The translations under genes were made by a program, and so were the position numbers. Below the pieces are notes generated by a model. It was not told the DNA's origin. It made no database searches and saw nothing but the letters and a program-made list of their open reading frames with translations. DNA of 64,000 nt, taken from Arenibacter sp. 6A1. GTDB lineage: Bacteria > Bacteroidota > Bacteroidia > Flavobacteriales > Flavobacteriaceae. The DNA is taken from positions 1-64,000 of the forward strand of contig NZ_JAAXCQ010000011.1 of NCBI RefSeq assembly GCF_012272855.1. Direction: 5' to 3'. Below are positions 14,258 to 49,394 of the stretch, in pieces. The number at the start of each line of letters is the position of its first letter. The stretch's first letter is position 1.

Positions 14258-14662
14258 TTACTCATCTAATAAGATTTTTAACTTTGTCAAAATAATAACT
14301 TCCGCTTTATTTTTATTGGCAAAGGCAGCCGCGATTTTATTGGAGGTATCCCAGATTAGTTTTTTTATAGGAATGGTGAATTTTGATTTATGCTCCCTAT
14401 AAAAATCGCTGAACTCTTTAAAATATATGGAACCCTCATGTTCTTCATTCTGTAACCAATCAAAAACAATTTCGATTTGGTATGCTGTGTCAGTACCAAA
14501 TTGATCCTTAAAATCCTCCAGGGAAACCCAATTTTCACGTACCGCAGCATGTAGTTTTTCAACCTCACTAGGCCTAACTTTATTGTCGGCCATAGCAATT
14601 GCATAGAATAATTTTCCTAGATTTTGGTAGAACTCATCGCTTATTTTATTGGATTGTTCCAT
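14258..14662 (-). CDS. TerB-like small protein
   Basis: 134 aa, acidic and helical. The segment FYAIAMADNKVRPSEVEKL (about 18-36) resembles the metal-binding EF-hand-like turn of the TerB (tellurite resistance / TerB-like) family. No signal or membrane segment. It is the leftmost gene of the stress island, transcribed away from it, and faces galT convergently. Role unknown; TerB relatives are often linked to membrane stress. I rate the family call as moderate because only one motif supports it. Confidence 0.55.
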   Translation of the reverse strand: MEQSNKISDEFYQNLGKLFYAIAMADNKVRPSEVEKLHAAVRENWVSLEDFKDQFGTDTAYQIEIVFDWLQNEEHEGSIYFKEFSDFYREHKSKFTIPIKKLIWDTSNKIAAAFANKNKAEVIILTKLKILLDE

Positions 14663-14765: not shown

Positions 14766-15002
14766 TTAAAAGGACATCTCAGATTCGTTATAGTCCGTTA
14801 ATGAATGAAGGGCATTTTTAATTCTCATCAATTCTTTTTTAACCTTTTCTAGGGTAAAAGGATGGTTATAACGTATGGATATAGTTTTGTTTTCCACACT
14901 GATATCTAGAATTCGTAAATCTAAAATTCTACTTAGATTTCTAATTATAATGCGTTTGCACTGCTCGGAATTAAGATCCGGTACTTGGATTAATGTTTTC
15001 AT
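14766..15002 (-). CDS. HMA-like small protein without the CxxC site
   Basis: 78 aa. The pattern of two beta-alpha-beta units (MKTLIQVPDLNSEQC..., VENKTISIRYN, TLEKVKKEL) looks like a heavy-metal-associated domain. The metal loop should read MxCxxC but here has a single Cys (LNSEQC), so metal transfer is doubtful. A TGAT-N4-ATCA box lies 64 nt before its start and a TTatTTTG element lies at the spacing shared by the other boxes, so it is probably part of the local stress regulon. It is divergent from the ROK kinase, which shares the same box. Confidence 0.6.
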   Translation of the reverse strand: MKTLIQVPDLNSEQCKRIIIRNLSRILDLRILDISVENKTISIRYNHPFTLEKVKKELMRIKNALHSLTDYNESEMSF

Positions 15003-15059
15003 TACAGTAAGATTTTGGGTTTAATGCTCAAAAATAACCACTCAATTGTAGATAGTAAA

Positions 15060-15071
15060 TGATATATATCA
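15060..15071. promoter_or_regulatory. CRP/FNR-type operator box, copy 1 (TGAT-ATAT-ATCA)
   Basis: Exact TGAT-N4-ATCA between two divergent genes. Counting 29.5 nt from its centre gives TTgcTTTG at 15095-15102 toward the ROK gene and TTatTTTG (minus strand, 15036-15029) toward the HMA-like gene. Both are one base from TAnnTTTG. The box therefore could drive both genes. Confidence 0.65.
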
Positions 15072-15153
15072 TAACAAAGGGGACATAATTTGCGTTGCTT
15101 TGTATTAACGCACTCATTTATCAACAAATGATAGTTGTTTTATTCCAAAAGCG

Positions 15154-16116
15154 ATGAAAAAAATAGTATTGGCCATAGATATTGGAGGTACTAATACCAA
15201 AATAGGGTTGGTTACCAAGGAAGGTAAGATTCTAGGGGCAAAGGTATTCGAGACTCGAGCAAAATTGCCCTATAAAAACTTCATGCAAAAGCTCGAAGAA
15301 AAAGTAAATATGTTGCTTAATGAACACAATGCTTTTTTTAGGATAGAGGCGATTGGCGTAGGAGCACCCAATGTTAATATTCTTACCGGAAATATGGAAA
15401 ATCCACCTAATTTAAATTGGGGAGCTTCGGTTCCTTTAGCTAAATCTATAGAGGAAACATGGAAATTCCCCACTATAGTGGCTAATGATGCCAATGCCGC
15501 AGCGATAGGCGAAATGACCTTTGGAATGGCCCAAGGAATGAAAAACTTCGTGATGTTGACCCTTGGGACCGGATTGGGGAGCGGTATAGTGATTAATGGA
15601 CAATTATTGACCGGTGAACACGGCTTGGCTGGGGAATTGGGACATACCAAAGTAGATCCCTATGGCCGACAATGTAATTGTGGCCTAAGAGGGTGTTTGG
15701 AAAATTATGTTTCCGTAACAGGGATAAAGCGGACCGTTTTTGAACTTATTTCTGAAATGACGGAAGACTCCCCTCTAAAAAAATTAAGCTTTGATGACCT
15801 AAAAGGAGAAATGATCGCCGAGGCAGCCTTAAATGGAGATCCTATTGCCATAAAAGCTTTTGAACTGACTGGTGAAATTTTGGGAAGTAAATTGGCCGAT
15901 TCCGTCGCACATTTAGATCCAGAGGCCATTATCTTGGCAGGGGGATTGGGAAACGCCGGAGATATCTTGTTAAATCCGACGGTAGCAAGTATGGAAAAAA
16001 ACCTGTTTACGGCTTACAAAGGAAAGATAAAAGTCCTTATTTCTATGGGGCCAAGTGCTAATTCCATTTTGGGCCCCGCAGCATTAGCCATTAATAACCT
16101 CACCTATTCTTCATAG
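15154..16116 (+). CDS. ROK family sugar kinase (probable glucokinase)
   Basis: 320 aa. The ATP-binding phosphate loop DIGGTNTKIG is at about 9-18, the catalytic-region motif ANDANAAAIGE at about 110-120, the glycine-rich LTLGTGLGSG at about 131-140, and the ROK zinc motif CNCGLRGCLE at about 172-181. This set is typical of glucokinase-type ROK proteins, which phosphorylate glucose or a related sugar with ATP; the absence of a DNA-binding N-terminus argues against a ROK repressor. Its last 13 bases overlap convergently with cbpM. Its promoter holds operator copy 1, so it is probably induced with the stress proteins, which is unusual for a glycolytic kinase. The sugar is not certain. Confidence 0.88.
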   Translation: MKKIVLAIDIGGTNTKIGLVTKEGKILGAKVFETRAKLPYKNFMQKLEEKVNMLLNEHNAFFRIEAIGVGAPNVNILTGNMENPPNLNWGASVPLAKSIEETWKFPTIVANDANAAAIGEMTFGMAQGMKNFVMLTLGTGLGSGIVINGQLLTGEHGLAGELGHTKVDPYGRQCNCGLRGCLENYVSVTGIKRTVFELISEMTEDSPLKKLSFDDLKGEMIAEAALNGDPIAIKAFELTGEILGSKLADSVAHLDPEAIILAGGLGNAGDILLNPTVASMEKNLFTAYKGKIKVLISMGPSANSILGPAALAINNLTYSS

Positions 16117-16397
16117 AGATGTAATTTGTTTTTTAGGAAAATGATCTCATCTTGCATTTTTTCGATTCGATCTAACAAATGATTGATTACTGCTATTCCC
16201 TCTAAATTGATCTCTAAATCTGAGTATAACCTAAGAATTTTTTCGGCCCTTGGCAATTGTTGAAGAGGTATGTACCTTGTTTTTTCCATAGAAATCAACT
16301 CTATTAGCCCATAATCATGTAGTTCCAATATAAATTTGGAGGATATATTATGGCTTATACAGAAGTCGGTAATTGCTATATAATGTTCGTTTCCCAT
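16104..16397 (-). CDS. cbpM: Chaperone modulator CbpM
   Basis: 97 aa. The MerR-like fold starts with IAITDFCISHNISSKFI, followed by DYGLIE and a C-terminal coiled coil (about 70-97). CbpM binds the J domain of CbpA and blocks its use of DnaK. It lies two bases downstream of cbpA, the usual pairing, so the partner assignment is strong. The last codons overlap the end of the ROK gene on the opposite strand. Confidence 0.85.
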   Translation of the reverse strand: MGNEHYIAITDFCISHNISSKFILELHDYGLIELISMEKTRYIPLQQLPRAEKILRLYSDLEINLEGIAVINHLLDRIEKMQDEIIFLKNKLHLYEE

Positions 16398-16399
16398 GA

Positions 16400-17299
16400 T
16401 TAGGCGTGTTTTTTAAGGGTTGCCAACTCGCTAAACAGTTCTTTCTCCTTTGGGCTTAGCTTTGTTGGGACCACAATATTATAGGTAATATATAAATCGC
16501 CGAACTGCCCTTCTTTTTTGTACACAGGAAATCCTTTTCCCTTAAGTTTTACTTTAGTTCCGTTCTGAGTCTCTGGTTTTACTTTTAGTTTTACTTGGCC
16601 TTCAAAGGAGTCTACTGTGATATCTCCACCCAATACGGCCTTGTAAAGATCTAAATTTACCGTGGTATACAAATTGTTGCCGTCTCTTTTAAACGGCGTA
16701 TCGTTTATGATAGTGAAACTAATGTAAAGATCCCCATTGGGTCCGCCTTGTTGTCCTGGTCCCCCATGGCCACTTATCTTAATAGTCTGCCCATTTTCTA
16801 TTCCTGCCGGTATGTTGAGTCTGATTTTTTTATTGTTGATGGTCAATGTTCGCTTATGGGACGTATAGACATCCCTAATATGCAATTGTAAGGAGGCATT
16901 TAGGTCTTGCCCTCTAAATTTTACTCTTCCTCTGCCACCAAAATTTTGGGAACCCCCAAACATAGATTCGAAAAAATCCGAAAAATCCTGTCCACTATAA
17001 CCTTGTGATGACCCAGAGCTTTGCGGACCATAACTGTATTGTCTAGATTTTTTTGCCTTTTCAAACTCTTCGGCATGTTGCCAGTCCTTACCGTATTGGT
17101 CGTATTTTTTACGGTTTTCAGGATTGCTCAACACCATATGCGCTTCATTAATTTCTTTAAACTTTTTCTCGGCTTCCTTATTGTTGGGGTTTATATCTGG
17201 ATGATATTTTCTGGCCAACTTTCTATAAGCTTTTTTAATATCGCTTTGGCTGGCACCTTTATCTAAATCAAGAACCTTGTAATAATCTATAAATTCCAC
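16400..17299 (-). CDS. cbpA: J-domain co-chaperone CbpA
   Basis: 299 aa. The J domain (residues about 4-72) has the HPD motif at 33-35. It is followed by a Gly/Ser/Phe-rich linker (about 85-120) and two DnaJ C-terminal substrate-binding beta domains, with no zinc finger, which separates CbpA from DnaJ. It stimulates DnaK at stress or in stationary phase. cbpM follows at once. No operator box was found in the 118 nt upstream. Confidence 0.92.
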
Positions 17300-17417
17300 C
17301 TTGTTGATATTTATAATTCAATAATAGATTGAGTGTATTGTTAAGCTACTATTTTTTCTGCTGTTTTTACAATATTGAAATTCTGTAATGGGTAAATAGG
17401 CTTCAGAGGATATGATC

Positions 17418-17840
17418 TCATTTTGTTTTGAAATTCAAAAGGGTAGGGGCGGTAATTTTGAAGATGTCTTTTTTTGCTAGTTTGAAAGACTCCGTAATAT
17501 CGTGCATCGTTTTTTTAAATTTTAATTGTTTTTTGATTAATTCCAATGCCGTTTCTTTTGGTGCAAAATAGGGAATACAAGCAAGCTCAAATTTTCGATA
17601 CTCAATTTTTTGGATGAGCTTGTCACATTTAATTCTTAGGGACTCAAAGCGGATTAAAACTTGCCTTACATCGTCCAAATTTTTATTTTCTGGACTATTG
17701 GAAAAATACCGGTCCAATAAAAGCTGTAAAACAATAAGTTCTTCCTTGTATTGGGATAAATCGGACATCCAATCTTCTAAAGAGTTGTAAATTAAGGATA
17801 TATTTAATGGTTGTTTGTTGGTTGATTGAAATGAATCCAT
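17418..17840 (-). CDS. Small helical protein of unknown function, family member A
   Basis: 140 aa, no signal or membrane segment, all helix with coiled-coil character. I do not recognise a named family. It resembles the protein at 30667 in the order of its motifs: W-x-S/D-x-L near the start, an LLxxY segment, a short proline/asparagine loop with NL, then a Q/R/L helix and a block ending in Y/H-x-x-x-L. Its promoter has operator copy 2 (58 nt before the start) and a TAaaTTTa element at the shared spacing, so it belongs with the universal stress genes. It is divergent from the PAS kinase. Confidence 0.7.
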   Translation of the reverse strand: MDSFQSTNKQPLNISLIYNSLEDWMSDLSQYKEELIVLQLLLDRYFSNSPENKNLDDVRQVLIRFESLRIKCDKLIQKIEYRKFELACIPYFAPKETALELIKKQLKFKKTMHDITESFKLAKKDIFKITAPTLLNFKTK

Positions 17841-17891
17841 AATGATGTTGTTTATTTTTATAAATTTAAGGAGCCCTTTTTGGTCGTGACA

Positions 17892-17903
17892 TGATTTAAA
17901 TCA
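17892..17903. promoter_or_regulatory. CRP/FNR-type operator box, copy 2 (TGAT-TTAA-ATCA)
   Basis: Lies 58 nt from the start of the minus-strand gene at 17840. The element TAaaTTTa (minus strand, 17868-17861) is 29.5 nt from the box centre. On the side of the kinase at 18020 no element fits that spacing. Confidence 0.65.
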
Positions 17904-18019
17904 TTTCGACCTATTGAAAAACAGCTTTTTAACGGTGGAAATAGAAATTTTATCAGCTCCTATTTTAAAGAATACGAAAAAGAATCCTTAAGGGCATTAA
18001 TATTAAAGCAGCTCGGATA

Positions 18020-19258
18020 ATGAAGACTTTTGAAGGGAACAAGTCGTTTTTTCTACTGCTTACCCAAGCGGTATCTCAAGGAATTGTAATAATAAATCAA
18101 GAAAGTATTATTATAGCTGCTAGTGAACGTACCTATGCCATGTTTGGATATTCGGAAGATGAGGTAATAGGAATGCCTATAGAAGGGTTAATGGTTGACC
18201 AGGATAGACAATCTTGTAGTGTTGCGGTAGATACCGTGTTTAATAACATAGAAAACATCAACATAATTTCTAGTACCCCATTAATAGGACAGCGGAAAAA
18301 TAAAGTGGAACTGCCTTTGGAAATAGTTTTGTTTAGGTTTCAAGATCATGGCCGAAGATACGCTTTAGCACTGTTTAAGGACATGACTGCTCTAAAAAAC
18401 AAGGATGTTGAAATACATGAACTGCAGAGTCAATTAGAATTAAAAATAAAGGAACGAACAAGGGAACTTCGCGATACGGTGGCTATTCTTAAAAAAGAAA
18501 TAAAGCGAAGGGAGAAGGCCGAAGCCCAATTGGCCTTGACACTTCAAAAGGAAAGGGAATTAAATGAATTAAAGACAAAATTTCTTTCCCTGGTATCCCA
18601 TGAGTTTAAAACCCCCTTAGGAGGTATTCTTACCTCTGCCACTTTGGTAGGGAAGTATAAAACAACTTTAGACCAAGAGGTAAGGGATAAGCATCTAATT
18701 AAAATTATTGGTGCGGTACAGCATCTTAATTCCATTTTAGACGATTTCCTCTCTGTAGAACGATTGGAAAAAGGGAAAGAGGTTTACCATAAAACAAATT
18801 TTTCCCTAAGTAAAATTGTCAACGATGTCATTTATAACGCTAATATGCTTTTAAAGAGTGGGCAACGCATTAATTATCCAGCAAATATAGATGAAGTTGT
18901 CATTCGGCAGGATGAGAAAATTGTATCTTTAGCATTAACCAACTTGTTGCACAATGCTATTAAATATTCTCCAGAAGATATGGAAATTGATGTACAAGTG
19001 GTATTGTGTAAAGAAAAAGTCATTTTTCATATCATAGATAAGGGGATAGGAATTCCCTTTAAAGATCAAAAACATATTTTCGAAAGATATTTTAGAGCAG
19101 AGAATGTTTTGTTAACCCAAGGTACCGGTATTGGTCTAAATATCGTAAAATCGCATATAGAAAACTTAGGCGGAAAAATATATTTTAGTAGTGAACATGA
19201 AAAAGGCAGTACCTTTTCATTAGAGTTTCCTCTCATAGAGCAAACATCCCAAAAATAG
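18020..19258 (+). CDS. PAS-domain sensor histidine kinase, cytoplasmic
   Basis: 412 aa and no membrane helix. A PAS domain spans about 10-125, followed by a coiled coil (about 130-180), a dimerisation domain with the phospho-acceptor H194 in VSHEFKTPLGG, and an ATPase domain with N (LHNAIKYS), G1 (DKGIGIP), F and G2 (GTGIGLNI) boxes. No cysteine-rich or haem motif is obvious, so the PAS signal is open; oxygen or redox would suit the neighbours. It is followed 49 nt later by the receiver-CRP regulator, its likely partner. Confidence 0.92.
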   Translation: MKTFEGNKSFFLLLTQAVSQGIVIINQESIIIAASERTYAMFGYSEDEVIGMPIEGLMVDQDRQSCSVAVDTVFNNIENINIISSTPLIGQRKNKVELPLEIVLFRFQDHGRRYALALFKDMTALKNKDVEIHELQSQLELKIKERTRELRDTVAILKKEIKRREKAEAQLALTLQKERELNELKTKFLSLVSHEFKTPLGGILTSATLVGKYKTTLDQEVRDKHLIKIIGAVQHLNSILDDFLSVERLEKGKEVYHKTNFSLSKIVNDVIYNANMLLKSGQRINYPANIDEVVIRQDEKIVSLALTNLLHNAIKYSPEDMEIDVQVVLCKEKVIFHIIDKGIGIPFKDQKHIFERYFRAENVLLTQGTGIGLNIVKSHIENLGGKIYFSSEHEKGSTFSLEFPLIEQTSQK

Positions 19259-19307
19259 ACATGAAAGTGATAAAAAGTGCTTTTTAAATCTTTCAAAAAA
19301 TGAGTAT

Positions 19308-20354
19308 ATGAGCAAAATTTTAATCATTGAAGATGACCCGTTATTACGCGAAAATACTGCGGAATTATTAGGTTTGTCTGGTTATGAGGTGTTTACGGCT
19401 GCCAATGGACAAAAGGGGGTTAAGGCTGCAAAAGAACTGTTGCCAGATTTGATAATTTGTGATATTATGATGCCGGTGTTGGATGGCTATGGGGTTTTAA
19501 AGGTGCTTTCTATGGAAGAAACCACCAAATTTATCCCTTTTGTTTTTATGTCGGCAAAAACAGAAAATAAGGATATCCGAAAAGGGATGGCCCTGGGGGC
19601 CGATGATTATTTGACCAAACCCTTTGAAGAAACAGATCTTCTTGGGGCTATCGAGAGCAGGTTGGCAAAAATAGCCATCCTAAAAGAAAGAAATTCCTTG
19701 GCGTTGACAGTAGGGGACGTTTTTCAAATTGCGACTATCGATGATTTAAAATGTCATATTAAAAACAAAGGAAAATCGTATGATTTTAAAATAGGAGAAT
19801 ACGTATATAAGGAAGGGGATCATGTAAATATGGTGTTTATTATAATAAGGGGGGTCGTTAAAACACATAGATTAGATGAACAAGGAAAGGAATTGATTAC
19901 GGGAGTATATAAGGAGAGCGATTTTTTTGGGTTTGGTTCCTTTGGCAATACGCCCTTTTACGCAGAATCAGCAACCCCCTTAGAACATACAACCTTGGTA
20001 GGGTTAAGGAATGAGGAATTTCGGAATATATTACAACAAAACAGTCTGCTTTCTTATGAGTTAATGAAACTATTAGCGGTAAACCTTTCAGAAACTAAAA
20101 CGCAACTCTTGGAAATGGCATACGGATCGGTTCGTAAAAAAACGGCCAGTACCATTTTAAAATTTGCCGAAAAACTAGAAACCGATGCGGAAGGGTGTAT
20201 TCATATCTTACGAACAGATCTGGCAAGTGTCGCTGGAATGGCCACGGAAACATTGATAAGAACCCTCTCGAGCTTTAAAAAAGAAGGCCTAATAGAAATA
20301 AAAGATAGAAACATTAAGGTAATCGATATTGAAAAGTTGAAAAAAATTCAATAA
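19308..20354 (+). CDS. Response regulator with receiver, cNMP-binding and CRP-type DNA-binding domains
   Basis: 348 aa in one chain: receiver (1-120, phospho-acceptor D52 in IICDIMMPVLDG, K near 103), cyclic-nucleotide-binding-like beta-roll (about 145-255), and a CRP/FNR-type winged helix (about 265-345). The recognition helix MATETLIRTLSSF keeps the E and R of FNR (ETISR) and CRP (ETVGR), which contact TGA half-sites. That suits the four TGAT-N4-ATCA boxes around it. It probably activates promoters when phosphorylated by the kinase upstream. Whether the roll still binds a nucleotide is not clear. Confidence 0.92.
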   Translation: MSKILIIEDDPLLRENTAELLGLSGYEVFTAANGQKGVKAAKELLPDLIICDIMMPVLDGYGVLKVLSMEETTKFIPFVFMSAKTENKDIRKGMALGADDYLTKPFEETDLLGAIESRLAKIAILKERNSLALTVGDVFQIATIDDLKCHIKNKGKSYDFKIGEYVYKEGDHVNMVFIIIRGVVKTHRLDEQGKELITGVYKESDFFGFGSFGNTPFYAESATPLEHTTLVGLRNEEFRNILQQNSLLSYELMKLLAVNLSETKTQLLEMAYGSVRKKTASTILKFAEKLETDAEGCIHILRTDLASVAGMATETLIRTLSSFKKEGLIEIKDRNIKVIDIEKLKKIQ

Positions 20355-20385
20355 AATCAGGTGTTTTGGCTTGCTTAAGGCAGTA

Positions 20386-20397
20386 TGATAATAATCA
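20386..20397. promoter_or_regulatory. CRP/FNR-type operator box, copy 3 (TGAT-AATA-ATCA)
   Basis: 65 nt before the first universal stress gene. TAttTTTa at 20421-20428 begins 29.5 nt from the box centre, so a class II activator would touch the polymerase here. Confidence 0.7.
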
Positions 20398-20455
20398 TTT
20401 ACTAACCGCTGATTCTCAAGTATTTTTAAGGAAATAAGTTGTAATCCTAGAAGAC

Positions 20456-21295
20456 ATGAGGCAAATCTTAATTCCAACCGATTTTTCCAACAACTCTTGG
20501 AATGCCATTAATTATGGACTACAATTTTTCAAGAAATCTAAATGTACTTTCTATCTTTTGCACATCATTCCAATATTCTCTTTTTCAGAATCCTTAAATG
20601 AATCAGCGAATTCATCGGCCGATCTACAGGAACAATTGTTGACTGAAAAACAGGCAGACCTACAAGAAGTGATCGATAAGATTGAAAAGAATTCCCTGAA
20701 TCCAAAGCACCGTTTTATAGGTGTTGCAGTGTATGACTTTTTTATAGATGCTATTCGGAAACAAGTATCGGATAACCATATAGATATGATCGTTATGGGA
20801 ACCAAAGGGGCTTCCGGTCTAAAAAAAGTAGCTATAGGAAGTAATACCGGAGATGTTATCACTAAAGTAAAATGTCCCTTATTGGCGATTCCTGAAAACT
20901 CTCAGTATCTAAGACCAAAGGAAATAGCATTCCCCACAGATTTTCATATGGGGTTCGATTTAAAAGTGTTGGATACACTTTTAGATATAGCCAATAGAAA
21001 TAAGGCTATAATCAGAGTACTGTACATTTCTAAAAAAGAAGAAAGCTTAAGTTTGGAACAAACCAAGAACAAAGATTTTCTGAACGATTACTTTTCAGAT
21101 CTGCAACATAGTTTTCATTTTGTCACAGGAAATAAAATGGAAGCCGCTATACAGAGTTTTACAGAGCGCAATGACATTGATATGATTGCCATGGTTGCAA
21201 AAAATTTAAATTATTTTCAACGTATTTTATTCAAACCAGCCGTAGAAGAAATAAGCTACCATACTAAAATCCCGTTTTTGGTTTTACACGAGTAA
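20456..21295 (+). CDS. Universal stress protein, two UspA domains (copy 1)
   Basis: 279 aa made of two UspA folds. The first (about 1-145) starts with MRQILIPTDFSNNS and has the ATP-binding pattern G-2x-G-9x-G-S (GTKGASGLKKVAIGS). The second (about 155-279) lacks it, so nucleotide binding is expected only in the first half. Cytoplasmic. Operator copy 3 is just upstream. Copies 2, 3 and 4 downstream have the same layout, and a fifth lies at 28086. Confidence 0.93.
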   Translation: MRQILIPTDFSNNSWNAINYGLQFFKKSKCTFYLLHIIPIFSFSESLNESANSSADLQEQLLTEKQADLQEVIDKIEKNSLNPKHRFIGVAVYDFFIDAIRKQVSDNHIDMIVMGTKGASGLKKVAIGSNTGDVITKVKCPLLAIPENSQYLRPKEIAFPTDFHMGFDLKVLDTLLDIANRNKAIIRVLYISKKEESLSLEQTKNKDFLNDYFSDLQHSFHFVTGNKMEAAIQSFTERNDIDMIAMVAKNLNYFQRILFKPAVEEISYHTKIPFLVLHE

Positions 21296-21338
21296 TTAAC
21301 ACGCAATGTATTCCATTATTAAAATCTCCTTTTTGATG

Positions 21339-21638
21339 TTATCCTTTGGATTTTATCGTATTGATTAAGGCCGCTTTTTGTACAATTCCAGATTCTCGCC
21401 ACACCTGTTGCCCATTTTTAAATAAAATCATCGTAGGGACTCCGCGTACATTGTATTTACTGGCTAATTCCTGGTTTTTGTCTACATCTATTTTTATGAT
21501 TTTTACCTCATCGCCAAGCGCTTCTTTTACTTGTTTAAGGATAGGAGCCAAAGATTTGCATGGTCCGCACCACTCTGCGAAAAAATCAATTAAAACGGGA
21601 CTATCCGATTTTAAAAGTTCATTAAAGCTAGTTTTCAT
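21339..21638 (-). CDS. Thioredoxin
   Basis: 99 aa, the usual length. The active site EWCGPCK has cysteines 24 and 27, and the cis-proline turn VRGVPTM is present near residue 70. It reduces protein disulfides in the cytoplasm and is recycled by a thioredoxin reductase such as the one at 31511. It is convergent with USP copy 1 and divergent from USP copy 2. The operator box at 21794 is about 155 nt from its start and points to the USP gene instead. Confidence 0.95.
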
Positions 21639-21793
21639 GTTTTGTAAGATTTATAGAGATTACACCTACTTATTGTACGTTTCTAAAAGGAGTATTGCCT
21701 ATGTGGCCCTTTTAATTGATGGAAAATTCTTGAAATAGCCCTAAAACATATTTCTTTAATACCTATTAGTATTCAAATATACCCTTTTTAACC

Positions 21794-21836
21794 TGATTGA
21801 TATCATGTTTATTTACAATATGTAAGGTTAAATTTG
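21794..21836 (+). promoter_or_regulatory. Operator box copy 4 (TGAT-TGAT-ATCA, 21794-21805) with a perfect -7 element
   Basis: The box centre is 64 nt before the ATG at 21863. TAaaTTTG at 21829-21836 is a full consensus -7 element, again starting 29.5 nt from the box centre. This is the clearest of the four sites. Confidence 0.75.
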
Positions 21837-21862
21837 AACGTATAAGCTAGTAAAAATAACCC

Positions 21863-22708
21863 ATGAGAAAAGTTTTGATTCCAACAGATTTTTCCGACAA
21901 TGCTTTTAACGCATTAAAATACGCCTGTCAAATTTTTAAATACGAAACCAGTGAGTTTTATATTATGCATGCTTATGCGGATGATGTGTACAATCAGGAA
22001 ATTAATACCGATCGCAGTTTGTTGGAGGTAAAAAAAGAAGAGTGCTTTCAGGAATCTGAGATAAAGCTCAAAAATATTTTGGCTGAGATTAAAAAATATT
22101 CCCCAAATCCAAATCACACTTATTCTACGCTTTCCAAATTTGGTTCGTTAATAGATGAAACAAATGACTTGGTTAACGAGCACAATATGGATATTGTCGT
22201 CATGGGAACCAAAGGAAAAACCAATGACCGGCATCTCACCTTTGGCAGTCATACCCTGCAAGTATTAAAGTACATTCAGAGTCCTGTATTGGCGATTCCT
22301 GAAAACTACGAATACAAAGCACCTAAAGAAGTGCTTTTTCCTACCAATTATTTGGTGCCGAACAAACGCAGGGAACTTAAATTATTATGTGAGATAACAG
22401 CCTCCTTCAGGTCATCGATACATTTATTGTATATAGACCCTATAAAAGTATTGACACTCCGACAGGAAGACAATTTAGAGTTTATTAAAAACTCTTTAAA
22501 AAAGGCAAAAATCATCACGGCCACTAGTGCAGAAAAGGACAAAGCAAAGGCTATTACCAATTTTATAACCGAACATAAGATAGATATGTTGGTGATGGTA
22601 CATACAAGACACTCCTATTTAGAAGATATGTTGTACCAATCTACCATAGACAAAATAGGTCTGCATATAAAGATCCCTTTTCTGATTTTTCAAAACCTAG
22701 CTCGTTAA
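21863..22708 (+). CDS. Universal stress protein, two UspA domains (copy 2)
   Basis: 281 aa. Starts MRKVLIPTDFSDNA. The first domain keeps G-2x-G-9x-G-S (GTKGKTNDRHLTFGS); the second does not. It is the first gene after operator copy 4 and is followed 20 nt later by copy 3, so the two form an operon. Confidence 0.93.
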   Translation: MRKVLIPTDFSDNAFNALKYACQIFKYETSEFYIMHAYADDVYNQEINTDRSLLEVKKEECFQESEIKLKNILAEIKKYSPNPNHTYSTLSKFGSLIDETNDLVNEHNMDIVVMGTKGKTNDRHLTFGSHTLQVLKYIQSPVLAIPENYEYKAPKEVLFPTNYLVPNKRRELKLLCEITASFRSSIHLLYIDPIKVLTLRQEDNLEFIKNSLKKAKIITATSAEKDKAKAITNFITEHKIDMLVMVHTRHSYLEDMLYQSTIDKIGLHIKIPFLIFQNLAR

Positions 22709-22728
22709 AAAACTAAATACGATCCCTT

Positions 22729-23586
22729 ATGAAGCGCATTTTGATTCCTACCGATTTTTCCGAAAATAGCTATAAAGCAATAGCTTATGCTTTACAGTTG
22801 TTAAAATCTAAAAGCTGTACCTTTCACTTGTTAAATACGTATACTCCCGCAATATATCAGGCCGAGTATTTATTGCACAGTCCGGCACAAATAGGGTTGG
22901 GCGATATTTACCAGACAAATTCGGAGACCCAGCTAGAGGGATTAAAAAAGAAGCTTACCACCCAATTTAAGAATCCATTACATGAATTTGTGACCCATAC
23001 AGCCTTTAATGTATTAGTAGACGCCATTGATGAGTTGGTGAGTAATGAAAGTATAGATCTCGTTGTGATGGGTACACAGGGTGCTACAGGTGCCAAGGAG
23101 ATTTTCTTGGGAAGTAATACCGTACATCTTTTAAAACGCGCTAAATTCCCTGTTTTGGCCGTGCCCAACAACTACGGGTTCAGGCTTCCTAAAAAGATTT
23201 TATTTCCCACAGATTATGAGATAAATTATAATACTGTCTTATTAAAAGAGATGCTCTATTTGGCAGATATTCATAATGCCAAGATAAAGGTGATGCATAT
23301 ATCACAAAATTACGAGCTCAGTGCAGAACAACAAAAAAACAAAAGTAAATTAACCGAACTTCTTGCAGGGGCGGTACATCAATTTCACGACCTGCCAGAT
23401 CAAGGAATAATTGAAGGTATAAACAGCTTTCAGCAAACTCATGAAACAGATGTTTTGGTCATGGTTAAAAACAAACACAGCTTTTTGGAAAATCTTTTTC
23501 TTAAACCTGTCATTAACCAAATAGGATTCCATACTAACATCCCCTTCTTGGTGCTGCCTTATAATTTGTTACAGGAATCTAAATGA
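22729..23586 (+). CDS. Universal stress protein, two UspA domains (copy 3)
   Basis: 285 aa. Starts MKRILIPTDFSENS; the first domain has GTQGATGAKEIFLGS, a complete ATP pattern. The second domain is degenerate. Second gene of the operon with copy 2. Sequence divergence from copies 1, 2 and 4 is large enough that this is an old family expansion and not a recent tandem duplication. Confidence 0.93.
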   Translation: MKRILIPTDFSENSYKAIAYALQLLKSKSCTFHLLNTYTPAIYQAEYLLHSPAQIGLGDIYQTNSETQLEGLKKKLTTQFKNPLHEFVTHTAFNVLVDAIDELVSNESIDLVVMGTQGATGAKEIFLGSNTVHLLKRAKFPVLAVPNNYGFRLPKKILFPTDYEINYNTVLLKEMLYLADIHNAKIKVMHISQNYELSAEQQKNKSKLTELLAGAVHQFHDLPDQGIIEGINSFQQTHETDVLVMVKNKHSFLENLFLKPVINQIGFHTNIPFLVLPYNLLQESK

Positions 23587-23755
23587 TTTGGTAGAAACTA
23601 AATCTTGCCAACCTTAAATGTTTTTTAATTTGCAGTGATAGCTATTGTTGTTTGCTCTGGAACAAGACGGTTTCTGCCATTTTTAAACGTATTATGGCCA
23701 TGGTCTTCACAGTCATGAAATTTACATTTACCAGCCGAGTTAAATGGATGAAAAT

Positions 23756-24604
23756 ATGGACAAAAGAATTTTATTGCCGACAGATTTTTCAAGGAATTCC
23801 CTTAATGCCATTATATACGCATTGGAATTTTTCCAGGATCAAAAATGTCATTTTTATATTTTGAACGCCTATTTGGTAAACGGATATTCCATAGACGATT
23901 TTAGAGTGCCCGTACCGGGAAATAAGGCTCATCAAACAGCTCATAATGCTTCTCAAGAGAACCTTCAAAAGGTTCTGGAAAAACTAAAACTTCACCAAAA
24001 CGTACACAATCATACCTTTCATACCATATCAACCAACAATTCCTTGAGCTATGGTGTTAAAAATATAATCACTAAAAAAGATATCGATCTGGTGATCATG
24101 GGTACCAAAGGGGCTACCGGGGCAAAAACTATTATTTACGGCACCAATACGGTGGCAATTATGGAAGAGGTCACTGAATGTCCGGTGATGTCGATTCCAG
24201 AAGAATTTAAATTTTCTCGGCCCAAGGAAATTGTTTTTACCACTAATTACAAAGCCAGTTTTAAACGTAGGGAACTACTTCGCTTAATAGAGATCGCAAA
24301 AATACATCATACCCCAATAAGGGTGCTACATATAATGGAGGACCTTGAACTTAGTTCATTGCAGCAAAATAACAAGGAATTACTCGAAGGTGTTTTAGAG
24401 TCTTTGGAGCATAGTTTTCATCATCTTTCACCAATAAACATCCATAAGGGAATAGGGGCCTTTATTGAAAGTAGGGGGAGCGATATGGTAGCCTTTTTAA
24501 ATAAAAAGCATCATTATTTCAAAAGTATCTTTACCAACCCCTTGGTAAAAGAAATAGGCTACCATGCTGATATTCCAGTCCTAGTGCTAAATGATTATAC
24601 CTAA
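23756..24604 (+). CDS. Universal stress protein, two UspA domains (copy 4)
   Basis: 282 aa from the ATG at 23756, chosen because MDKRILLPTDFSRNS then lines up with the starts of the other copies; an ATG at 23744 is possible. The first domain has GTKGATGAKTIIYGT, with T for the last S, which the pattern allows. The second half lacks the pattern. It is 170 nt downstream of copy 3 with its own TAcaTTTa at 23723-23730 as a candidate -7 element, and I found no full TGAT-N4-ATCA box for it. Confidence 0.92.
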   Translation: MDKRILLPTDFSRNSLNAIIYALEFFQDQKCHFYILNAYLVNGYSIDDFRVPVPGNKAHQTAHNASQENLQKVLEKLKLHQNVHNHTFHTISTNNSLSYGVKNIITKKDIDLVIMGTKGATGAKTIIYGTNTVAIMEEVTECPVMSIPEEFKFSRPKEIVFTTNYKASFKRRELLRLIEIAKIHHTPIRVLHIMEDLELSSLQQNNKELLEGVLESLEHSFHHLSPINIHKGIGAFIESRGSDMVAFLNKKHHYFKSIFTNPLVKEIGYHADIPVLVLNDYT

Positions 24605-29223: not shown

Positions 29224-30609
29224 ATGCAAACTGTAAAACTTCATTTCTTAGGTGCCTCGGGCACTGTGACAGGATCGAAATACTACCTAGAAACGTCTGA
29301 ATGTAATATCATGATCGATTGTGGGATGTTTCAAGGATTAAAGGAATTGAGAGAACTGAATTGGAAGCCACTACCTATAGACGCATCAAAAATAGATATA
29401 GTACTGCTAACCCATGGGCATTTTGATCATATCGGGTATTTGCCAAGATTGTTGAAAGAGGGGTATAATGGTACAATAATAGGAACCGAACCTACACTGG
29501 CCATTACAGAAATCGTATTAATGGATAGTGCTAAAATTCAGGAAGAAGCAGCAGAAAGGGACAACGAGGAAGCCTTAAGTGTGCATCAACCTGCAATGCC
29601 TTTTTATACCATAGAAGAGGCCGCCCTGACGTGTAAAAAATTTCAGGTTGAAAAACGGGACAATTGGCACTCCCTATCTACAAATATAAAATTCAGGTAT
29701 CGTTATAACGGTCATATTTTGGGGGCTACTTTCATTGAAATGGAGGTCTTTGGTAAACAATTTGTGTTTTCCGGAGACATCGGGCGACCGCTAGATTATT
29801 TATTAGATGCTCCGGAGCGGCCCCGTTGGGCAGATTATTTATTGTTGGAAAGTACCTATGGCAATAAATTACATCCAAAAGAAAATGTGGAGGAAGCCTT
29901 AAAAGCATTGGTCAATAAAACTATTCTGGAAAAAGGAACTTTAATTATTCCATCCTTTGCTGTAGAGCGTCTTCAATCTTTAATGTATATTTTTTGGAAA
30001 CTTTACAAAAAAAACAAAATTCCCGACATCCCCATATTTATAGATAGTCCCATGGGAAACAATGTACTATCGGTATTCGAAGCTTTTCCGAAATGGCACA
30101 AATTAAGCCATGAAGAATACCTTGCCATGAGAGATCATTTTAATATTGTAAGTTCTTACCGGGAAACCTGGGAGACCATTGACGATCCTAGGCCAAAAGT
30201 GGTTATTGCAGGTAGCGGTATGGTCACTGGAGGAAGGGTGTTAACTTATCTGAAGCAACTTGTCGATATAACGACAACCACGGTACTGTTGGTAGGGTAC
30301 CAGGCCGAAGGCACAAGAGGAAGGCAGCTGCTAGAGGGGGCCCATGAATTAAAACTCTTTGGGAAATACTATCCGGTTAAAGCTAAGATCGAACATTTTG
30401 AAAGCCTTTCTGCCCATGCCGATCAGGAAGAATTGCTACATTGGTTAAAAGAAATTAAAAATATTCCGGAAATGGTTTTTTTGGTGCATGGAGAACCCTT
30501 GGCTTTAGATGCTTTTAGGGTGAAGATAAAGGATAGTTTGGGATGGCTGGTTAAGGTGCCAAAACTCTATGAAACCGTTGAAATATTAATTGATGCAAAA
30601 ACTGATTAA
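29224..30609 (+). CDS. MBL-fold, beta-CASP hydrolase (RNA-processing type)
   Basis: 461 aa. The metallo-beta-lactamase motif LTHGHFDHIGYLP (about 62-74) and the beta-CASP insert (about 195-375) with SGMVTGGR and FVHGEP-like LVHGEP near the end are visible, along with a C-terminal RMMBL part. Such proteins are exonucleases or endonucleases acting on RNA (YSH1 / RNase J relatives), or of unknown role in bacteria. Cytoplasmic. Next to the stress genes and upstream of the helical family protein B, it may act on RNA in stress. The substrate is inferred. Confidence 0.88.
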   Translation: MQTVKLHFLGASGTVTGSKYYLETSECNIMIDCGMFQGLKELRELNWKPLPIDASKIDIVLLTHGHFDHIGYLPRLLKEGYNGTIIGTEPTLAITEIVLMDSAKIQEEAAERDNEEALSVHQPAMPFYTIEEAALTCKKFQVEKRDNWHSLSTNIKFRYRYNGHILGATFIEMEVFGKQFVFSGDIGRPLDYLLDAPERPRWADYLLLESTYGNKLHPKENVEEALKALVNKTILEKGTLIIPSFAVERLQSLMYIFWKLYKKNKIPDIPIFIDSPMGNNVLSVFEAFPKWHKLSHEEYLAMRDHFNIVSSYRETWETIDDPRPKVVIAGSGMVTGGRVLTYLKQLVDITTTTVLLVGYQAEGTRGRQLLEGAHELKLFGKYYPVKAKIEHFESLSAHADQEELLHWLKEIKNIPEMVFLVHGEPLALDAFRVKIKDSLGWLVKVPKLYETVEILIDAKTD

Positions 30610-30666
30610 TATCATAGCATTGCGCCTTTCAGTACAATAGATTTGTGGTTAATTAAGGGGGCAAAC

Positions 30667-31089
30667 ATGAAAAAGAGCTTTAATATAGAAGACCAGAATA
30701 AAAAACTGGAGGTATTATACCGAGACACGCAAAATTGGAAATCAAATCTAAAATTTTTGGAAGATGAGGCGCAGTTTATTAGCCAACTATTAAATTCTTA
30801 TGTGTTTGAGCCGAATACCCCCAACCTTTTTGAACGATTGCAGGACTATGGGAATCGAATGACAACTGTGTCCCAACAAAAGAATGTTCTTAACGAACAA
30901 ATAGCGAACCATGAAAAAAGTTTGGGAGGCATGTTGGAGTGTAAGGACGAAACCTGTGATTTTACCTACTATAATAAACACGAAGAACTGCAAAACGAGG
31001 TAGATCGTTGTTTAAATAGTTTTAAGGAGGTTAAAGCCGAAATATTTAATTATGCCGGGGGAATTTTAAAGAACCGAAAAGAAAATTGA
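30667..31089 (+). CDS. Small helical protein of unknown function, family member B
   Basis: 140 aa from the ATG at 30667; an in-frame TTG at 30643 is less likely. All helix and no signal. It matches the protein at 17418 in length and in motif order: W-x-S-x-L near residue 20-25, LLxxY, a loop with NL, a glutamine/arginine helix, then a block around HExxL. Member B adds two cysteines (LECKDETC). It lies 57 nt after the MBL gene and may be in one operon with it. Confidence 0.7.
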   Translation: MKKSFNIEDQNKKLEVLYRDTQNWKSNLKFLEDEAQFISQLLNSYVFEPNTPNLFERLQDYGNRMTTVSQQKNVLNEQIANHEKSLGGMLECKDETCDFTYYNKHEELQNEVDRCLNSFKEVKAEIFNYAGGILKNRKEN

Positions 31090-48626: not shown

Positions 48627-49394
48627 TTATTTTGGGGCGTATTTTAAATCAGGTCTTATTTCACCCTGCTTTTGTTTGTACTTTAATAAGCTGCTAAAGA
48701 GCTCGCTCATAACAGCTTGTCCCTCATCTCCCAGTAATTCGTCGTTTTCTATACTTCGGCTGGCATAATGTAGGGCATCCTTTGCCGCAATAGCTACTAA
48801 ATAATGTTCGCCATCGGTTCCAAAACCACTGCGATATACCCTATAGTGTACAGGCGATCCTTTTCTGGTAAACAGGTCTTTTACGGCTGTCATATGTTCT
48901 TTTACAACAGCCCTATTGCCTGGCGATACATATAACCAGTGCATGGTCCGGAAATTTTGCCCTTCTGGGGTTTGGGTAATTCCATAGGGCATGTAGGTGA
49001 GCTCCTTGTCTAAATGTATGATATAGTCGAGTTCGGTATCATAGCATTTGTCCATTCTCGTAAAAATCTCGCTTACCTTTTCTTTGCCGGCTTTTTCCGA
49101 TAGTTCCATAAAAATTTGCTGATGCACATCTGCCATGCTTTTAATAGGAGACACAAAACTATAGCTGGCGTCATAAGTATTTAGGGTAATCCATCCCGAA
49201 CTTTGTATCTCATGTGTTTTTAATAGGTTTAGCAGTTCTTTGACCGTTTTTTCATATTCGGATACCATCGATAACTTTACTAGGTCTTCGTGTACCCAAT
49301 ATGCCTGTGAGGCCTCCTCTTCCTGTCCCTGGACAGATCCCAAAGGCAGGAATAACAGTAATGCTCCAATGAATTTTATCAGTTGTCTTCCCAT
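48627..49394 (-). CDS. Exported protein, alpha-beta fold, unknown
   Basis: 255 aa with a signal peptide (ends near VQGQE). Helix-strand pattern similar to the protein at 46871, with repeated LxxxMxAVKDLF-like helices. Unknown function. The three exported genes are read in the same direction but have gaps of 224 and 251 nt, so they may be separate transcripts of one regulon. Confidence 0.6.
   Translation of the reverse strand: MGRQLIKFIGALLLFLPLGSVQGQEEEASQAYWVHEDLVKLSMVSEYEKTVKELLNLLKTHEIQSSGWITLNTYDASYSFVSPIKSMADVHQQIFMELSEKAGKEKVSEIFTRMDKCYDTELDYIIHLDKELTYMPYGITQTPEGQNFRTMHWLYVSPGNRAVVKEHMTAVKDLFTRKGSPVHYRVYRSGFGTDGEHYLVAIAAKDALHYASRSIENDELLGDEGQAVMSELFSSLLKYKQKQGEIRPDLKYAPK

Follow-up and report, generated by a model that had tools for sequence, protein, structure and literature searches.

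The 64-kb window described here (bases 1-64000 of contig 2 in the 4.67-Mb genome of Arenibacter sp. 6A1) carries an island of stress-protein genes, in which TGAT-N4-ATCA boxes stand at a fixed distance from TAnnTTT promoter elements. The island also encodes a protein with a response-regulator receiver and a CRP-type DNA-binding domain, hereafter called the receiver-CRP. Judged from the sequence, the boxes are predicted operators in a Bacteroidota module of FNR-type class II promoters. Exact boxes start at five positions in the window (15060, 17892, 20386, 21794 and 30603); the initial annotation had described the first four and overlooked the fifth. The boxes are listed below with their -7 elements, each of which lies 23 nucleotides (nt) from its box.

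15060-15071: box 1, TGATATATATCA, in the interval separating the leftward HMA-like gene from the rightward ROK kinase gene
15029-15036, minus strand: -7 element of box 1, TATTTTTG, a full TAnnTTTG match, serving the HMA-like gene at 14766-15002
15095-15102, plus strand: weaker -7-like element of box 1, TTGCTTTG, with one mismatch, toward the ROK kinase gene at 15154-16116 (plus strand)
17892-17903: box 2, TGATTTAAATCA
17861-17868, minus strand: -7 element of box 2, TAAATTTA
20386-20397: box 3, TGATAATAATCA
20421-20428, plus strand: -7 element of box 3, TATTTTTA
21794-21805: box 4, TGATTGATATCA
21829-21836, plus strand: -7 element of box 4, TAAATTTG
30603-30614: box 5, TGATTAATATCA, preceding a helical protein of the protein A family
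30638-30645, plus strand: -7 element of box 5, TAGATTTG, a full consensus match

The 23-nt gap to TAnnTTT, found at five of the five boxes, equals 29.5 nt between the centre of the box and the start of the -7 element, and the rule proposed for the first four boxes is thus exact at all of them. For boxes 1-4, the start codons lie 57.5-64.5 nt from the box centre. This uniform geometry agrees with a class II activator positioned near -41.5, as had been suggested. Box 1 had been read as acting in both directions, with a leftward element given as TTatTTTG. The leftward element is actually the complete TAnnTTTG match listed above, and an element toward the ROK kinase gene does exist at the proper distance, but only in the weaker, one-mismatch form.

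By itself, the number of boxes in the window is mildly unusual: dinucleotide shuffles contained 1.39 boxes on average, and five or more were reached in one of 100. The extended TTGAT-N4-ATCAA form of Escherichia coli, with up to two mismatches, shows no excess in the window (65 matches, as compared to 67.7 expected). The count alone would thus leave room for chance palindromes in AT-rich intergenic DNA that were noticed afterwards. The spacing across the whole genome argues strongly against this explanation. TGAT-N4-ATCA occurs 124 times in the genome, as compared to 69 times for the reversed pattern. When a TAnnTTT element was allowed to follow at any of the 31 gaps from 8 to 38, 38 pairs were found, 12 of them at gap 23, while the reversed control gave 18 pairs over all of these gaps. 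Outside the window, with its six pairs omitted, gap 23 accounts for 7 of the 32 pairs, where about one is expected (binomial p = 6e-5), and these pairs are independent of the place where the idea arose.

The same spacing recurs around relatives of the receiver-CRP. We collected 80 loci, the best 80 of at least 580 relatives: 56 loci (L120-L175) with flanks of up to 10 kb, by title nearly all from Flavobacteriaceae, and 24 further loci (L176-L199), mostly from other Bacteroidota. The 56 loci contain 121 sites at gap 23, and the remaining gaps between 8 and 44 have 0-7 sites each. At least one gap-23 site is present in 46 of the 56, and in none of the 56 with the reversed control. Likewise, a half-site spacer of four bases gives 211 matches, as compared to 16-61 for the other spacers from 0 to 12. 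In the 24 further loci, the signal of the pure TGAT/ATCA form at gap 23 is weak (3 sites in 3 loci); with T or C permitted in the half-site, 18 sites appear at gap 23 and 0-3 at the other gaps. The averaged site reads A-A-(C/A)-TGAT-(A/T)-T-(A/T)-T-ATCAT-(T/A)-(T/G)-T, followed by TAnnTTT(A/G) 22 nt after ATCAT. The base before TGAT is C at a frequency of 0.58, A at 0.30 and T at 0.10, and the base after ATCA is T at 0.97.

The initial annotation had made its proposal depend on conservation of the boxes in related genomes. In Arenibacter nanhaiticus (L120), sites corresponding to boxes 1-4 lie at the orthologous places, and the fetched stretch stops before box 5. The box 1 site (L120:5752) is kept together with a TATTTTT element, box 2 (L120:8585) is kept with its -7 element, box 4 (L120:12486) is kept, and the counterpart of box 3 (L120:11078) is TGACAATAATCA, with T changed to C in one half-site. 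Moreover, we searched 159 genomes of the family, evenly drawn from a larger group, for the 42-base module TGAT-N4-ATCAT-N22-TAnnTTT, and obtained 796 exact matches, as compared to 36 for the reversed control. The gap-23 pairs outside the window, the 121-site peak in the relatives and the excess across the family refute the chance explanation, which we regard as extremely improbable. The boxes, their spacing, conservation and clustering, the list of their targets, and the active-site residues of the receiver-CRP described below are established by computation.

The genes of the window island that concern us here, some of them box targets, are as follows.

14258-14662, minus strand: TerB-like protein, downstream of the HMA-like gene
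14766-15002, minus strand: HMA-like small protein of 78 residues, with a paralogue at C46:18204-18458
17418-17840, minus strand: helical protein A, 140 residues, target of box 2
18020-19258, plus strand: PAS-HisKA-HATPase histidine kinase, whose gene directly precedes that of the receiver-CRP
19308-20354, plus strand: receiver-CRP, with Response_reg, cNMP_binding and HTH_Crp_2 domains
20456-21295, plus strand: universal stress protein (USP) copy 1
21863-22708, plus strand: USP copy 2; two USP-like frames, named by eye, come next (22729-23586 and 23744-24604)
30667-31089, plus strand: helical protein of the protein A family, 140 residues, target of box 5

Among the targets of 129 sites, five of which lie in the window, 54 are USP-type, 20 TerB-like, 7 of the helical family, 4 CbpA-type DnaJ and 3 Hsp20 (the names are those of similarity clusters, labelled from their members in the window and on contig C46). 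Five sites have no downstream frame, and the rest precede genes of other small clusters. Relatives of the TerB-like protein are thereby the second most frequent box target. This family is present in 41 of 84 loci; of 29 members, 9 match Pfam TerB at E <= 0.05. The helical family, whose proteins have about 140 residues and no Pfam family of their own (helical protein A itself is unmatched in Pfam), is represented by 42 members, spread over 28 of 84 loci, and boxes accompany several of these members. The predicted structure of the member at 30667-31089 consists of three long helices (predicted local distance difference test, pLDDT, 88), and that of the TerB-like protein of six helices (pLDDT 80). 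Neither structure has a match in the PDB at E <= 0.001, and accordingly we claim no function for them. The HMA-like protein has no match in Pfam and a weak match to CsoZ, under the cut-off; its profile finds matches in 4 of 84 loci. Inside the island, at 16104-17299, a DnaJ protein with a DnaJ_C domain and a MerR_2 protein form a CbpA/CbpM-like pair, and relatives of this DnaJ protein are box targets at four other loci.

The initial annotation had proposed a stress regulon outlined by the boxes of the window. A single regulon is supported, but it is not limited to the window island. With up to two mismatches over the box and the -7 element, the genome contains 62 matches, as compared to 20 for the reversed pattern, so that about one third of these matches may be due to chance. 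Six of the 62 fall in the window island and 18 on contig C46 between 11 and 60.3 kb; lone exact sites lie at C6:42427 and C46:141609. The larger C46 island (8-60 kb) encodes a second receiver-CRP (21412-22464) with a kinase (22461-23984). Judged by position, boxes stand there before several USP genes, a gene for a PfkB kinase (33562), back-to-back cation ATPase and Hsp20 genes (38872/38903), genes for small helical proteins (42843 and 53291), and, at 48992, a dienelactone-hydrolase-like gene leading a run that includes the genes for a phosphoribosyltransferase, PfkB, Pta and acetate kinase. The island as a whole contains many USPs, Hsp20, a cation ATPase, two PfkB proteins, Pta/acetate kinase, an M50-CBS protease and a phosphoribosyltransferase (domain calls from Pfam and NCBIfam, several USP frames named by eye). 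In addition, C11:303-307 kb holds a small cluster of four USP-type genes (one of them tested, the others named by eye) together with a DUF2267 gene; its sites are TGAC/GTCA at 303921 and TGAC/ATCA at 306670, and no receiver-CRP was seen in C11:301500-309000.

How might the receiver-CRP be controlled? Its closest named relative is that of Arenibacter nanhaiticus (96% identical; records of the genome itself were possibly left out). The residues of the acid pocket and the phosphorylation site, E8, D9, D52 and K104, are invariant in 82 of 82 receiver-CRPs, and position 82 is Ser or Thr in all of them. In the phmmer alignment to 3h3u, a CRP/FNR-family chain, F209 and Y218 stand opposite its Glu and Arg, which we take to be the contacts to the phosphate of cyclic AMP (cAMP). 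Of the 82 receiver-CRPs, 71 have F or Y at the first of these phosphate-cassette positions and 78 have Y or H at the second, in place of the Glu and Arg of the cAMP type. The receiver fills the N-terminus, where we found no cysteine cluster; each protein has 1-4 cysteines in all, and 68 of 82 have one or two. With the phosphorylation site intact, the cAMP residues missing and no N-terminal cysteine cluster, the input of the receiver-CRP is likely to be phosphorylation. Kinase genes lie next to both receiver-CRP genes (18020-19258 in the window and C46:22461-23984), and a histidine-kinase profile matches in 81 of 84 loci, counting any histidine kinase of the locus, whether adjacent or not. The C46 kinase has a His presumably near the FixL ligand position, judged by eye, which the window kinase lacks; we do not claim haem binding.

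Which protein reads the island boxes? Receiver-CRP genes, recognized by a full-length match with E below 1e-70, are present in 78 of the 159 genomes and absent from 81. The 78 genomes contain 589 exact sites (mean 7.55), none of them has zero sites, and seven have only one or two; the 81 others contain 207 sites (mean 2.56), and 26 have none. The reversed control gives 0.23 and 0.22 per genome, respectively, and the difference in site number is significant by the Mann-Whitney test (p = 9e-15, uncorrected for phylogeny). Moreover, listed sites are available for 13 of the receiver-CRP genomes, and 55 of these 113 sites are no farther than 25 kb from a receiver-CRP gene, where 1.65 are expected. 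In the neighbourhood of receiver-CRP genes (1.09 Mb on named contigs), the 42-base pattern occurs 117 times, or about 108/Mb, as compared to 2.1/Mb over the 78 genomes. All 82 aligned receiver-CRPs have the recognition-helix residues E314, I317 and R318, and the Glu and Arg noted earlier in the window protein are thereby conserved throughout. Because of this clustering, the site number and the neighbouring kinases, the receiver-CRP is the most probable reader. We consider it moderately probable that the receiver-CRP reads the island boxes and controls a survival regulon of low-oxygen type through FNR-type class II promoters.

Several observations weigh against this assignment. First, related genomes are non-independent samples, and the p-values ignore shared descent; at least five sites are present in 20 of the 81 genomes without a receiver-CRP. 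Second, five proteins of the genome carry a CRP-type HTH over the cut-off, and three of them have an E-x-x-I-R recognition helix: the window receiver-CRP, the C46 receiver-CRP and an FNR-like protein (C23:76620-77306), whose helix is close to that of the receiver-CRP. The best named relative of the FNR-like protein is Fnr, under the curated cut-off (98 of 228 bits). Third, the module stands before typical FNR targets. Among 30 hand-picked genomes, whose negatives were taken from the site-rich ones, three had no hemN match, and 26 of the other 27 carry TGA-N6-TCA with TAnnTTT at gap 23 before hemN (25 at -59 to -74, one at -105), comprising 12 of 12 genomes without a receiver-CRP and 14 of 15 with one. 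In the negative genomes (30 loci of 15 site-rich genomes), the module precedes the genes for CcoN (225 nt away), HemN, NirK and three USPs. Its other targets there are the gene for a hydrogenase small subunit, an Rrf2 gene, genes with CBS domains and cytochrome c genes of the Nos-leading type (NosZ shown for G092, elsewhere by eye), along with genes that have no obvious link, and some sites have no convincing gene. Consequently, the receiver-CRP, which the initial annotation had called the obvious regulator, stands as a candidate but not as the obvious one, since three proteins carry the E-x-x-I-R helix and genomes that lack a receiver-CRP use the module as well.

These observations give weight to the explanation that the FNR-like protein alone activates both the USP islands and the respiratory genes, with the receiver-CRP a minor or non-activating protein whose gene merely lies within an FNR-regulated island. 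In its favor are the similar helix, the relationship to Fnr, and the presence of the module, in genomes without a receiver-CRP, upstream of classic FNR target genes and of some genes for USPs. In the genome studied here, moreover, boxes of the TGAC type precede a USP gene next to the FNR-like gene and another in the C11 cluster. On the other hand, this explanation does not account for the threefold number of sites in receiver-CRP genomes, their strong clustering around receiver-CRP genes, or the invariant E, I and R of the receiver-CRP helix, as expected for a DNA-binding protein. In addition, the box types of the two islands differ from those of the cbb3, hemN and nos genes. Pure TGAC/GTCA is found at 0 of 19 island sites, as compared to 5 of 5 elsewhere (C11 not counted), these five being the 4 of 4 sites in the FNR/cbb3/hemN region and the Nos-cluster site. 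At the 23-nt gap, TGAC-N4-GTCA precedes ccoN, hemN, the USP gene adjoining the FNR-like gene, and a Nos-cluster cytochrome c gene. On balance, we regard activation by the FNR-like protein alone as unlikely.

The split of box types within the genome suggested that the receiver-CRP reads TGAT and the FNR-like protein TGAC, but we rejected such a strict partition. The hemN boxes are of both types in both genome groups, and a pure TGAC/GTCA box precedes a USP-like gene at C11:303921. Also unfavorable to a receiver-CRP reader specific for TGAT are the pure TGAC/GTCA box before the USP gene beside the FNR-like gene, the 31 pure TGAC/GTCA boxes near receiver-CRP genes (as compared to 121 TGAT/ATCA), and the higher number of TGAC sites in receiver-CRP genomes (mean 4.06, versus 1.12). 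Alternatively, both regulators could share the boxes, by competition or co-regulation, with the fourth half-site base tuning the preference. Mixed boxes near receiver-CRP genes (TGAT-N4-GTCA 42, TGAC-N4-ATCA 37) and the two box types at hemN are consistent with such sharing, and so is the higher TGAT:TGAC share near receiver-CRP genes (117:30, versus 589:317 over the receiver-CRP genomes, counted with the same patterns, p = 4e-4). This preference is, however, modest, and the genome sets sampled for the two ratios differ. We consider joint use somewhat less probable again than control by the FNR-like protein alone. In G122 and G015, a box lies between the FNR-like gene and genes for a P-type ATPase (by eye) and cbb3 oxidase, an arrangement that is perhaps the ancestral home of the module.

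Returning to the receiver-CRP as the reader, we propose the following mechanism. The PAS histidine kinase would phosphorylate the neighbouring receiver-CRP. A CRP/FNR-family dimer would then occupy each box at about -41.5, with the TAnnTTTG promoter at -7, and the 23-nt gap would fix both the face of the DNA and the distance from which the dimer can touch RNA polymerase, as in class II activation. The two receiver-CRPs (19308-20354 and C46:21412-22464) would most likely read the island boxes, and turn on a survival set of USPs, small helical proteins, TerB-like proteins, Hsp20, CbpA, PfkB and AckA/Pta. For hemN, cbb3 and nos, the probable regulator is the ordinary FNR-like protein, reading an overlapping set of boxes. 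The binding protein, the mode of activation and the control by phosphorylation are what we infer from the sequence, as is a low-oxygen or energy-stress signal, which is suggested by the target genes and by a module common to hemN and cbb3.

E. coli FNR and the Anr proteins of Pseudomonas and Burkholderia use TTGAT-N4-ATCAA sites, and their targets include hemN, cbb3 and USP genes. The class II promoters of FNR and ANR thus share with the present module the TGAT-N4-ATCA core, the position at about -41.5 and the hemN, cbb3 and USP targets. In contrast, the outer TT...AA is replaced here by C or A on the distal side and T on the proximal side, the fourth half-site base is T or C, the promoter is the Bacteroidota TAnnTTTG, and the added regulator has a receiver domain instead of a cysteine cluster. 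In the FixL-FixJ-FixK cascade, a PAS histidine kinase, a receiver protein and a CRP/FNR-type activator control low-oxygen genes. The same three elements occur here, but with receiver and activator in one protein, so that the cascade would consist of only two proteins, a kinase and a receiver joined to a FixK-like activator. For Burkholderia, a potential Anr site, TTGATCTCGATCAA, is reported before the cytochrome bd genes of B. cenocepacia (PMC9104464), and FixLJ and fixK of B. dolosa are mentioned in the literature (PMC6127331, PMC9104464).

DosR of Mycobacterium tuberculosis is a NarL-type response regulator, and we take a CtpF-type ATPase, an M50-CBS protease and a phosphoribosyltransferase to be further parallels with its regulon. 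In its gene content, the island set resembles the low-oxygen survival loci of DosR and of lxa from Burkholderia cenocepacia, a likeness drawn here from the genes alone; USP, Hsp20 and PfkB are all found among the C46 and window proteins by Pfam and NCBIfam. Both of these loci are described as USP-rich clusters with alpha-crystallin and phosphofructokinase, and the lxa locus is tied to Anr/FixK-type proteins (PMC6127331). In the present phylum, the receiver-CRP, the FNR-like protein or both would act. A further parallel is NmpRSTU of Myxococcus xanthus, a two-component system that controls genes for USPs, CBS-domain proteins, HemN and cbb3 (PMC11841059). It differs in its NtrC-like regulator and its operator class.

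To our knowledge, the regulons of environmental Bacteroidota are little mapped. Among the open-licence papers listed, judged by titles and abstract openings, we found no description of a receiver-CRP regulon or of such an operator in Bacteroidota. The 42-base module, with its exact spacing, can be searched for in such genomes and yields candidate low-oxygen or energy-stress genes, including two families of small proteins, the three-helix and the TerB-like proteins. It also provides a test case of how a cell separates two regulators with nearly the same recognition helix. As a broader and more tentative proposal, for which our confidence falls a little short of even, a receiver-FixK/FNR fusion driven by a PAS kinase may command, throughout Bacteroidota, a repeatedly duplicated dormancy or low-oxygen regulon by means of this rigid module. 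If so, control of the same survival kit would have been solved independently a third time, after DosR and Anr/FixK, and here beside an FNR circuit on a near-identical operator. The gene sets suggest that the USP/Hsp20/PfkB kit recurs in distant phyla under unrelated regulators.

Finally, the frame of a beta-CASP-type metallo-beta-lactamase protein (29224-30609; NCBIfam matches under the cut-offs) terminates within box 5. A metallo-beta-lactamase superfamily protein (mass 50.96) is likewise included in the lxa list (PMC6127331).

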